DNA from: an uncultured Chloroflexus sp. | GTDB taxonomy: Bacteria; Chloroflexota; Chloroflexia; Chloroflexales; Chloroflexaceae | Direction of reading: 5' to 3' | DNA: 64,000 nt | Assembly (NCBI RefSeq): GCF_937951745.1 | Contig: NZ_CALFBQ010000027.1 | Span: 1-64,000 of the forward strand | In this document: positions 811-64,000 of the stretch, piece after piece | Position numbering within the stretch: the first letter of the stretch is position 1 | How the letters are laid out: the number at the start of each line of letters is the position of its first letter | Notes under the pieces: generated by a model | The model's database searches: none | What the model saw: the letters and a program-made list of their open reading frames with translations, nothing else | What the model was told of the DNA's origin: nothing | Program-made: the position numbers and the translations under genes

Positions 811-2823
811 CTAGCCGTGCCGCGCCACTTGCTCTTTCACTGCCGCCACAACACGCTCGGCAGTCAGGCCAAATTCGGTGTAGAGGCGCTGGAACGGGGC
901 CGAAGCGCCGAAGCGATCGACACCAATAATCGCGCCGTCGCAGCCAACATAGCGTTCCCAACCGAGCGAACGGCCAGCCTCGATCACGACCCGCGCCTTG
1001 ACCGGCGGCGGCAACACCCGATCGCGATAGGACTGCTCTTGCTGATCGAACAGCTCGCGGCAGGGCATGCTGACCACCTGCACTGCAATACCCTCATGCG
1101 CCAATTGCTCTGCCGCAGTCAACGCAATCGACACTTCCGAGCCGGTGGCAATTATGATCGCTTGGGGCGAATCGGCGGCACGCAACACATAACCGCCGCA
1201 CAGCACGCCATCGGCAGCGCCGAGCTGGGTGCGGTCGAGCGTCGGAACATTTTGGCGCGATAGGATCAGCGCGGTGGGGCCATTGGTACGCTGGAGAGCT
1301 AAGCGCCATGCCATCGCCACCTCGTTGGCGTCTCCCGGACGCACTACCAACAGGTTGGGAATGGCACGCAACGACACCATCTGCTCGACCGGCTGGTGGG
1401 TGGGGCCATCTTCACCAACACCGATGCTATCGTGGGTAAAGACGTACACGACGCGCAACCCCATCAATGCCGCCAGCCGGATTGACGGGCGCATATAGTC
1501 GCTAAACACGAGGAAGGTGCCGCCATAGGGAATAATGCCGCCATGCAGCGCCATACCATTGAGGATTGCGCCCATCGCATGTTCACGCACGCCAAAGTGT
1601 AAATTGCGCGCGTTAAAATGATCGCCGCTAATCGACCCTAGCCCTTCTAGATAGGTAAAATCCGAGGTGTGAAGGTCAGCCGAACCACCGAGCAAACCGG
1701 GGATAATAGGAGCTAGCGCCTGCAACACTGCGCCAGATGCGGTACGAGTGCCTTTTGCCTTTGGATCAGGGGCAAAGACCGGCAACGCCGCTTCCCAGCC
1801 GTCGGGCAACCCACCCGCTTGCAAGAGGTCCCATTCGGCGGCCAATTCGGGATACGAAGCCCGATAGCGGCGCAGCATCGCCTCCCATTCGCGTTGGCGC
1901 ACCTCGCCGACTTCAACCGCCAACTGCATGTGGTCGTAAACCTCATTAGGCACGTAGAAGAGCGGCTCTTGCGGCCAACCGAGCGCCGCTTTGGTCAAGC
2001 GCACCCCCTCGACACCGAGCGGCTCGCCGTGGGCTTTGTGGCTGCCAGCGCGCGGACTGCCGTACCCGATCACCGTGCGGGTGATGATCAGCGAGGGCCG
2101 CTCGCCGTCTGCGATCGCTTCGGCCAAAGCTAAGGCCACCGACGAAATATTGTGACCATCGGCATACAACACTTGCCACCCGTAAGCGGCAAACCGCTCA
2201 GCCACGTTCTCGCTCCACGCTAGCTTGGTCGGCCCAACGAGCGAAATATCGTTGCTGTCGTACAGAACGATCAATTTGCCCAACCGCAGATGGCCGGCCA
2301 AGCTGGCTGCTTCATGCGAGATGCCCTCCATCAAATCGCCATCGCTGGCAATGACGTAGGTATAGTGATCAACGACCGGAAAGCCGGTCCGGTTAAACTT
2401 GGTCGCCAACCACCGCTCGGCAATCGCCATCCCAACCGCCGTGGCAATCCCTTGCCCCAGCGGGCCGGTGGTCATTTCAACTCCCGGTGTCTCGTGGTAC
2501 TCAGGATGACCGGGCGTGCGACTGCCCCACTGCCGAAACTGTTTTAGTTCCTCCAACGGCAGATCATAACCGGTGAGATGGAGCAAAGCGTAGAGCAGCA
2601 TCGAGCCGTGTCCAGCCGATAGCACAAAACGGTCACGGTTCGGCCAGCCCGGATCAGACGGGTTATGCTTGAGAAAACGAGTCCAGAGAACATAAGCTGC
2701 ATCGGCCATGCCGAGCGGCATACCGGGGTGGCCGCTGTTGGCTTGTTGGACGGCGTCGATGGCCAGCGCGCGGATAGCGTTAGCGCACAACTGGTCGATG
2801 GTAGTTGTCACGGGTTCGTTCAT
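811..2823 (-). CDS. tkt: transketolase
   Basis: A 670-residue protein, the usual full length. It starts with an [20 protein letters not shown]-type N terminus, carries the family signature [11 protein letters not shown], the thiamine diphosphate motif SDGDLMEG followed by SND, and the central pyrimidine-domain signature [13 protein letters not shown]. It transfers two-carbon ketol units between sugar phosphates in the cytoplasm, in the non-oxidative pentose phosphate pathway. It stands alone: a long non-coding stretch lies upstream, and it converges with the hydrolase gene. Nothing looks damaged. The alternative members of the family (DXP synthase, dihydroxyacetone synthase) fit the motifs less well. 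Confidence 0.97.
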
Positions 2824-3500
2824 GCGGCAATTTCTCCTATCTGTGCGCCGTCGGTGAGCGCCGGCGCATGTTCACCACTCTGTGGTTCATCATACCACTG
2901 CTTAGATGCAATGCTGCATGAACAGCAACGATACGATCGTGTGCCTGCGCCGGCAGCGACAGGGATTGGTCTGCTATTTTTGCGACACCTGCTGCGCAGG
3001 TTGATGGTCCTTACCGACCGGCTCCCGCTCCCACCAAGCAGTAGGAGCGGCAGAACCGGACGGTTGCCGGCACCGATCTTTGCCATCAACTACACCTACG
3101 CGCATGGGTTCTGTCCGCCCTCAAACATTGACAGCAGGGGAGCGGGGCGCACAAGAGCCTTTGTCATTGCAAGGGAGCGATGGCCTCCAGCGCGGCTGGA
3201 GGATGCCCGACCGAAGCAATCCCCCTGTTAGCATGCCTGAGGGGATGTCCGTTCGTGCTGGCGGGGATTGCTTTGCTGCGGGACAGAGCATTGCTCTACC
3301 CTTCCGCTCGCAATGACACGAGGGGAAGCGAGGCAGGGCGCCCGACCCTGAAAGATCGGACTACGTTTACGAAGCCTGCGGCGCAGGTTAGGCATGGTGA
3401 TCTACGAGTAGTGGCTTCAACGCACACCGGTACATTGCGCGACACCTTCGGCTACATTTGTTATGATAGAACCATAATGATTACGCCCCAACGAGGTGTT
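2824..3500. other. 677-base gene-less stretch
   Basis: The short open frames here have no family features or ribosome site and look like chance. The region holds the transketolase promoter somewhere on the minus strand, a hairpin-rich patch near 2989-3005 (ACCTGC...GCAGGT), a repeat element at 3162-3318, and a second CCTGCGGCGCAGG hairpin near 3379-3391. A TATGAT at 3462-3467 could be the -10 box of the gene starting at 3501; no good -35 box is at the right distance. Confidence 0.6.
3162..3318. repeat. REPIN/MITE-like element with TGTCATTGC inverted ends
   Basis: The 157-base element begins TGTCATTGC and ends GCAATGACA, a 9-base perfect terminal inverted repeat. Inside, GAAGCAATCCCC and GGGGATTGCTTTG form a second inverted pair. 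No open frame of note lies within. A partial relative (TGTCATTGCGAG ... GAAGCAATCTCC) lies at 16813-16892, so this is a dispersed family rather than a single palindrome. Elements of this general type are common non-autonomous repeats in bacterial intergenic DNA. Confidence 0.7.
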
Positions 3501-62064: not shown

Positions 62065-62300
62065 AGACACCTGTGCAGTGTAAAGAGGTACGGCAGTGAT
62101 GCGAGGCTGTGGAATACTCCTTCATTATCGCTGCTTTCATGATTTCTGACAAGTCCATTATTAGATGCGTATAGAAATAGGGCGGAATGAATGCCGCCCT
62201 TCATGCAGTGCGCGCGGCACCTCGTAGGGCGGCATTTGTTCCGCTCCATCAACCACCTCGCATGCCCCGCCCCTACGACGGCTAGGCGTGTTCCCCCTCA

Positions 62301-62337
62301 CCCTTCCCCTCTCCCCCGCGGAGCGAGGGGGGAAGGG
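62301..62337. repeat. C-rich hairpin repeat
   Basis: CCCTTCCCC and GGGGAAGGG form a 9-bp stem. The interior CCCCCGCGGAGCGAG resembles that of the hairpin at 18502-18532. Confidence 0.5.
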
Positions 62338-62373
62338 GGGACTCGCCATGCGTTCATCTTCCGGGCCATAGCC

Positions 62374-62433: not shown

Positions 62434-63105
62434 CTAACCTTGCTCGGCAAGGTTGTTCAGCAACTCAGTCAACACTAGCCGGGTATGGCGCAGTGGAGTC
62501 GGATCGGTGCGCAACCGGCGCAGATCGGCGATGGTGTCAATGTCGTACCACGGATCGATGAGTGCCGTGCGCAGGCCTAGTTGCTCGGCGATGGCGAGGG
62601 TATCACGCAACACGGTAGGGGTGCTCATAGGTACGCCGGTGAACAAGGCCGGGGCGGGCCGGCGTAACCCTACCAAATAGTAACCGCCATCTTCCGCCGG
62701 CCCTAATACCAGATCAGCGCCGCTAGCCAGCGCCGTGACGGCCTGCGCGATATGGGCTGGCGGCAAGCTGGGACTGTCGCTGCCGATCACCAAAACTGCC
62801 GGCACACCTTCACCCAACACAGCATTGGTCACGGCGGCCAGCCGCTCGCCAAGATCAACGCCGGTTTGCGGACGGCGAGCGATATCAGGGGCCAGTGCCG
62901 CAAAATAATCAGCGGCCTCAGCCGGCGCATAAGCAATCAGCGGCTGCATACCGGGTACGGTGCGCAATAACTCGACCAGATCGCGTAGGAACGCGGCATA
63001 GAGCGCCGCTGCCTGCGCCGGGGTTAATGGCGGGCAAAGGCGCGTCTTGACCCGGCCCGCTTCAGGGCGGCGAGCCATCATCACGAGGACGGGAGGCGCG
63101 CTCAC
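62434..63105 (-). CDS. DUF2064/TIGR04282 nucleotidyl- or glycosyltransferase
   Basis: A 223-residue GT-A-fold protein of the rSAM/selenodomain-associated transferase 1 family (TIGR04282): LVMMARRPEAGRVKTRLCPPL is the nucleotide-binding opening and VIGSDSPSLPPAHI and LGPAEDGGYYLVGL the later signatures. The GTG at 63105 is chosen because it keeps the family N terminus, and its GTGA overlaps the stop of the read-through frame of the radical SAM gene. The family travels with TIGR04167 radical SAM genes, as here. Role: probably modification of a small metabolite such as arsenosugar precursors. Confidence 0.9.
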   Translation of the reverse strand: MSAPPVLVMMARRPEAGRVKTRLCPPLTPAQAAALYAAFLRDLVELLRTVPGMQPLIAYAPAEAADYFAALAPDIARRPQTGVDLGERLAAVTNAVLGEGVPAVLVIGSDSPSLPPAHIAQAVTALASGADLVLGPAEDGGYYLVGLRRPAPALFTGVPMSTPTVLRDTLAIAEQLGLRTALIDPWYDIDTIADLRRLRTDPTPLRHTRLVLTELLNNLAEQG

Positions 63106-63122
63106 GGCGCGCTGATCGTCCC
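63086..63122 (-). promoter_or_regulatory. bacterial SECIS-like hairpin after the TGA
   Basis: On the minus strand, beginning three bases after the TGA: GGGACG pairs with CGTCCT (one G-U), a symmetric 4x4 internal loop follows, then GCGCGC pairs with GCGCGC around the loop CGTGA. The apical loop begins 19 bases after the TGA and has G as its second base. These fit the published ranges for bacterial SECIS elements (loop 16-37 bases away, G in the first two loop positions). Confidence 0.6.
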
Positions 63123-63125
63123 TGT

Positions 63126-64000
63126 TCAGGTGGAACCGGCGGCGGCGGTGCATGCGTAACAATGAGCAGCAGTGCGAATTTCGCGGTTAGCAATATCGGA
63201 CAGCGTCACATCCAAAATCGTTTGCGGCAACGCTATATCAAGCATCTGGTTAAAGTCACAGTCATAAAGTCGGCCATCCCATCCGACTGAGAGCGTCGTG
63301 CGGCACATCAAGCCAGCCACCGTCGCCGGATTGAACGACTGCACCAGCAACTGGATATAGTCGTCGAGTTGGCCGCTCTCGTGCAGGTAGGCCAGATAGC
63401 GGCTAATCGGCACATTGGTGAGCGTGTAGAGGCGGTTAAAAACAATGCCGTAGCGCTCGGCTAATTCAGAACGCCAGCGCACTTCAAGAGTCGCTTGGGG
63501 TTCGGGAAGATGGGGCCCGGTCGGATTAGCAATCAGGTTGAGCAGCAACCCACTACCGGCTTGGCCATAGCCCAACGCATTCAATTCGCGCAGAGTGGCG
63601 ATTGACAGAGCAAAGACGCCATCGCCGCGTTGGCCATCGGTGCCGGCGGGATCGGGGGCCGGCAATGAGGCGATGATCTCAACCTGCTGTTCGGCGAAAA
63701 AGCGGGGCAAGTAGCGATAGTTAGGCAATTGGGCAATTGTCAAATTGCAGCGATCGATCACGTGACACCCTAGCGCGCGCGCTCGCCGGACAATCTCGGC
63801 AAACGCGGGATGCAGCTCCGGCGCGCCGCCGGTAATATCGAGCACCGGAATCTGCCAGCGCGCGAGCAGATCAAGACAAGCGGCGACCACATCCGGCGGC
63901 ATTATCTCGGTGCGATCGGGGCCGGCATCGACGTGGCAATGGCGGCAGGTTTGGTTACAGCGCCGCCCGACATTGATCTGCAACACTTCAACCCGCGATC
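63126..64000 (-). CDS. ArsS/rSAM_SeCys-type radical SAM protein, 5' part outside window
   Basis: The visible part starts beyond the window edge. The radical SAM cluster motif is CNQTCRHC (CxxxCxxC) in NVGRRCNQTCRHCHVDAGP, typical of TIGR04167/ArsS, a family reported in arsenosugar synthesis. DITGGAPELHPAF is the GGE-like SAM motif. The C terminus reads HCYACTAAAGST and meets TGA at 63126-63128. In relatives this site is followed by Cys or Sec, then about a dozen residues. Past the TGA the frame is open for seven codons (TGTISAP) to a TGA that overlaps the next start. A selenocysteine at the first TGA is likely; see findings. Confidence 0.88.
   Translation of the reverse strand, partial: SRVEVLQINVGRRCNQTCRHCHVDAGPDRTEIMPPDVVAACLDLLARWQIPVLDITGGAPELHPAFAEIVRRARALGCHVIDRCNLTIAQLPNYRYLPRFFAEQQVEIIASLPAPDPAGTDGQRGDGVFALSIATLRELNALGYGQAGSGLLLNLIANPTGPHLPEPQATLEVRWRSELAERYGIVFNRLYTLTNVPISRYLAYLHESGQLDDYIQLLVQSFNPATVAGLMCRTTLSVGWDGRLYDCDFNQMLDIALPQTILDVTLSDIANREIRTAAHCYACTAAAGST

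Follow-up and report, generated by a model that had tools for sequence, protein, structure and literature searches.

A probable selenoprotein form of ArsS in Chloroflexus with a SECIS-like hairpin that overlaps the arsS stop codon

Introduction

The radical SAM family TIGR04167 (rSAM_SeCys), which NCBI names 'arsenosugar biosynthesis radical SAM (seleno)protein ArsS', has a Sec form that already figures among the predicted selenoprotein families (GxxU; AAR34688.1) (PMC13188914, PMC9312934). Adenosylation of arsenic in oxo-arsenosugar synthesis has been reported for ArsS (as cited in PMC12159101). The hairpins that accompany Sec codons in bacteria are described by the bSECIS rule, which calls for a G in the first two positions of the loop and a spacing of 16-37 nt from the UGA (PMC13188914).

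Here we describe an arsS-like gene at one edge of the window, the whole 64,000-nt stretch of Chloroflexus DNA that was analysed. The original prediction, made from this DNA alone, was that an in-frame TGA near the 3' end of the gene is read as Sec. The literature searches that we made found no paper on arsS in Chloroflexus. Since TIGR04167 already counts as a predicted selenoprotein family, the gene is a further example of that family and is mostly ordinary.

Results

The arsS-like frame and its in-frame UGA

The gene, its two UGA codons and its neighbour lie at the following positions.
63102 to 64000, minus strand: 3' part of an arsS-like radical SAM (seleno)protein gene (TIGR04167, 409.6 bits; Pfam DUF3641 and Radical_SAM).
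63126 to 63128, minus strand: UGA, probable Sec codon, in the column of the invariant TIGR04167 Cys (from ortholog codons and TGY in the outgroups).
63102 to 63104, minus strand: UGA that ends arsS, inside the apical loop of the SECIS-like hairpin (frame end in orthologs; the C terminus matches the model end).
62434 to 63105, minus strand: TIGR04282/DUF2064 glycosyltransferase-like gene (TIGR04282, 187.5 bits against a cut-off of 134 bits; DUF2064, 116.3 bits).

The minus-strand frame reads HCYACTAAAGST, then the first TGA, TGTISAP and the second TGA. This frame, both TGAs and the overlap of the second TGA with the GTG of the next gene in GTGA had been predicted, and sequence and coordinates proved exact. 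The gene starts about 148 bases past the window edge, at about C27:64148, probably at the ATG of MAAIRLIPTL..., and the whole frame was read on locus L001. The part within the window covers model positions 9-303 of the 303 in TIGR04167. In the profile search, the score with the UGA taken as a residue (409.6 bits) falls to 400.8 bits when the frame is cut at the UGA (curated cut-off, 300 bits); the alignment reaches position 303 of 303 when the UGA is read through and ends at 298 when it is cut. This alignment check places the TGA on the Cys/Sec column, where the original prediction expected it.

The product also matches Pfam PF04055 (Radical_SAM) and PF12345 (DUF3641). Its radical SAM CxxxCxxC motif is CNQTCRHC, the cysteines of which are invariant in our alignment. 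The protein thus resembles TIGR04167 members in its full-length match over the cut-off and in its C-terminal CxxC...GSx(C/U), but the C terminus is CYACTAAAGST-U here as opposed to the usual C(Y/F)GCTAGxGSS-C. Near the protein end, the second Cys of the C-terminal CxxC precedes the Sec position by eight residues.

The UGA column in relatives and outgroups

We collected orthologs from this genome and 60 relatives, among which 12 genomes hold a complete arsS copy. The codon at the Cys/Sec column is TGA in 11 of these 12 and TGT in the twelfth (G017); a partial copy in G001 has TGA at the same column. The codons downstream of the UGA are conserved in the relatives, and in all 11 complete UGA-type orthologs the frame stops at the second UGA. 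Relatives that stop at the first position with TAA or TAG would, according to the original prediction, have told against Sec; among the intact copies of this genome and its 60 relatives there are none. Outgroup loci of other phyla (Planctomycetota, Bacteroidota, Nitrospirota, Acidobacteriota, Myxococcota and others) carry a Cys codon, TGT or TGC, in 80 of 80 cases, within a CxxC...GSxC motif that is mostly CxxCTAGxGSSC; these are the best 80 of more than 589 loci ranked by similarity, so that Cys is common at this column and an absence of Sec elsewhere is not implied.

These codons bear on the simplest alternative, namely that the first UGA is an ordinary stop, in which case the protein would be eight residues shorter and would lose the Cys/Sec residue. 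Unless recoded, a UGA terminates translation, and recoding of even the dedicated Sec codon of E. coli fdhF is only 30-40% efficient (PMC4513850), so a shorter arsS product is to be expected here too. As an explanation of the locus, an ordinary stop has to contend with intact relatives that always carry UGA or a Cys codon and never UAA or UAG, with the conservation of the downstream codons, with Cys in all of the best 80 of more than 589 outgroup loci, and with a hairpin that covaries (see below).

A draw of 400 genomes of the phylum Chloroflexota yielded four from a second family in which the codon at this column is likewise TGA, in a C terminus of the form CFGC..GAGSG-U and similar. Downstream of the TGA, all four have a CGUG loop between the arms of an inverted repeat, and this hairpin is part of the minimum-energy fold in two of them. 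The second lineage (L156, L158, L159 and L160) has small genomes of 1.7-2.1 Mb, and its loop is without a UGA.

A SECIS-like hairpin 3' of the UGA

The hairpin and its conserved part are as follows.
63083 to 63125, minus strand: SECIS-like hairpin, whole fold including the lower helix, directly 3' of the UGA (-21.1 kcal/mol).
63096 to 63112, minus strand: conserved SECIS core, with the upper stem 63107-63112/63096-63101 and the loop CGUGA at 63102-63106 (covariation and RNA model).

Folding the 46 bases that begin with the UGA (63083-63128) recovered the two-part hairpin of the original prediction. Its lower helix begins three bases after the UGA, and its upper stem of 6 bp (GCGCGC/GCGCGC) closes the five-base loop CGUGA at a distance of 19 nt from the UGA. 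The fold has z = -2.43, and 4 of 200 shuffles of the region are as stable. It agrees with the bSECIS rule and resembles the consensus in its place directly 3' of the UGA, its small apical loop with G second and then U, and its spacing. Unlike the consensus, the loop here includes the arsS stop as well and, in this genus, the probable start of the neighbour.

The CGUGA loop is invariant across the 11 UGA-type sequences, and three of the six upper-stem pairs show compensatory changes among them (G-C/C-G/U-A, C-G/U-A and G-C/U-A/A-U). Paired bases fill 93% of the upper-stem cells. The covariation score is 0.400 as against a shuffle mean of 0.139, is reached by 0 of 500 shuffles and does not exceed 0.167 once the partner column is shifted. 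With sequences that are few and related, the covariation by itself gives good, not overwhelming, support. A covariance model built from ten relatives, with the window left out, gives the arsS site its best score anywhere in the 4.25-Mb genome (40.7 bits, with 20.6 bits for the runner-up), a lead to which protein homology contributes. In some relatives the fold has little thermodynamic support (z = -0.11 in G018 and +1.18 in G001). The Cys form in G017 (L022, TGT) is without the hairpin: the region has z = +1.86, and 199 of 200 shuffles equal or exceed it in stability.

The lower helix was considered as a conserved element and dropped, since it is not kept in other genera and only the upper stem is common to the relatives. 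Rfam gave no match at the gathering score in the window and, near arsS, only weak chance matches. Further along, between the DUF2064 gene and an MFS-type gene, lies a G+C-rich inverted repeat (62282-62350) that also drew weak chance matches from Rfam and looks like an intergenic repeat.

Sec machinery in this genome and its congeners

The genome carries a tRNA-Sec with anticodon UCA, selA (568 bits) and selB (303 bits; 333 bits with its C-terminal part). The original prediction had named all of these, together with selD, as genes to be sought, and had held that a lack of selB and tRNA-Sec would speak against Sec; both are present, and it is selD that a TIGR00476 profile search of the genome did not find in this assembly. 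Two of the three matches to the tRNA-Sec model over the cut-off are tRNA-Ser and were rejected, as were two weak TIGR00476 matches, which sequence and context identify as hypE and purM. Because selD was not found, the Sec machinery is incomplete on the evidence in hand.

The congeners suggest where the gene may be. selD scores over the cut-off in all five near-complete congeners that bear selA (G002, G003, G005, G006 and G007), and these selD genes themselves carry an in-frame UGA. Three of the congeners were inspected for gene order (G002, G003 and G007), and each has selD next to a PAS-domain gene region. Contig C39 of the present assembly (G000, bases 1-465, locus L067) begins inside this PAS-domain region, about 0.2-0.9 kb short of the expected selD. 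As the contig begins beside the position that selD has in the congeners, we consider it likely from synteny that selD of this genome lies in an assembly gap.

Another congener shows what accompanies loss of the Sec genes. In G004, which is without selA and selD, arsS persists at the same syntenic place only as a pseudogene interrupted by gaps and stops, and the UGA is replaced by CGA (L177, G004:C1:2361500-2368500, about 2389-3287, minus strand). The GUGA and an intact DUF2064 frame persist there, and the stem of the hairpin has decayed. G017, with the Cys form, keeps selA, and no selD match was found in its assembly. One genome, G035, is discordant in that it has the UGA and no selA match; its assembly consists of 1,640 contigs with 7% contamination.

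The missing selD fits an ordinary stop at the first UGA, but the presence of tRNA-Sec, selA and selB does not, nor does the decay of the whole of arsS in G004, where the Sec genes are gone. Together with the codons of the relatives and the covarying hairpin, this makes an ordinary stop extremely unlikely. A second alternative is that the UGA is read as some other amino acid, through a reassigned code or read-through by a near-cognate tRNA. An open frame past the UGA does not by itself identify the residue inserted. Against a residue other than Sec, however, the same frame terminates at a UGA eight codons further on, the genome has a tRNA-Sec with the UCA anticodon as well as selA and selB, and a hairpin of the SECIS type belongs to the Sec route only; we see next to no chance that this alternative is correct.

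Overlap of the hairpin loop with the arsS stop and the probable DUF2064 start

The gene that follows arsS was predicted to be a DUF2064 gene of the same rSAM/selenodomain set, and its TIGR04282 and DUF2064 scores bear this out. Like other members of TIGR04282/DUF2064 (arsenosugar-associated glycosyltransferase), it is adjacent to arsS, on the same strand and over the cut-off. It differs in that its start is probably the GUG at 63103-63105, within the SECIS loop, giving a stop/start overlap of GUGA; a later GUG-AUG-AUG is a possible alternative start. The UGA inside the loop has no SECIS of its own. The arrangement of loop, stop and start is the same in G002, G003 and G007, and the loci of other genera have no DUF2064 gene after arsS.

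Since the probable DUF2064 GUG lies in the loop in this genus, the hairpin could in principle be kept for the translation of the next gene, by sequestering its start codon, and not as a SECIS. Three observations make this very unlikely. Loop CGUGA and the covarying stem are also kept in the genera that have no DUF2064 gene downstream, where the 3' arm lies past the stop. In G001 the hairpin loop is CGGGA, still within the bSECIS rule, and the GUGA overlap stands apart from the hairpin on its 3' side. Finally, in G004 the stem has decayed even though GUGA and the downstream gene persist.

Discussion

We conclude that the gene almost certainly encodes an ArsS/rSAM_SeCys radical SAM enzyme of the selenoprotein type, with UGA 63126-63128 decoded as Sec. 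The decoding is inferred from homology, the identity of the column, the covarying hairpin, the codons of the relatives and the presence of tRNA-Sec, selA and selB, which support the original prediction on its central point. SelB carrying Sec-tRNA-Sec would bind the hairpin, with its CGUGA loop, just 3' of the UGA, and Sec would be inserted at the position that cysteine has in the Cys forms. Translation would then proceed through the hairpin for seven more codons and end at the loop UGA, at which stop/start coupling probably initiates the DUF2064 gene. Sec would probably act together with the neighbouring CxxC, and, judging by its place near the C-terminal end, a role as a ligand or redox residue is plausible.

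A search for ArsM (NF008823) gave no match over the cut-off in the genome (best, 52 bits vs 263). With no ArsM over the cut-off despite the presence of arsS and TIGR04282, 'arsenosugar' is only a label, and one that may fail to hold in this genome.

For annotation, gene callers that take UGA 63126-63128 as a stop lose a probable functional residue and may misplace the start of DUF2064. Two features are likely to be of specialist interest: the arsS stop and probable DUF2064 start that share the hairpin loop, and the natural series of copies with probable Sec, with Cys or in decay. The relatives form a clean natural experiment, with probable Sec accompanied by a SECIS, Cys without one, and a decayed arsS where the Sec genes were lost. 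With SECIS loop, stop and start superimposed, the locus is a compact case of overlapping translation signals that lends itself to testing. It is conceivable, if rather unlikely, that the SECIS hairpin hides the DUF2064 GUG and that only Sec-inserting ribosomes that reach the loop UGA open the hairpin and restart. If such Sec-dependent coupling were true, DUF2064 output would follow the selenium supply via one shared five-base loop.
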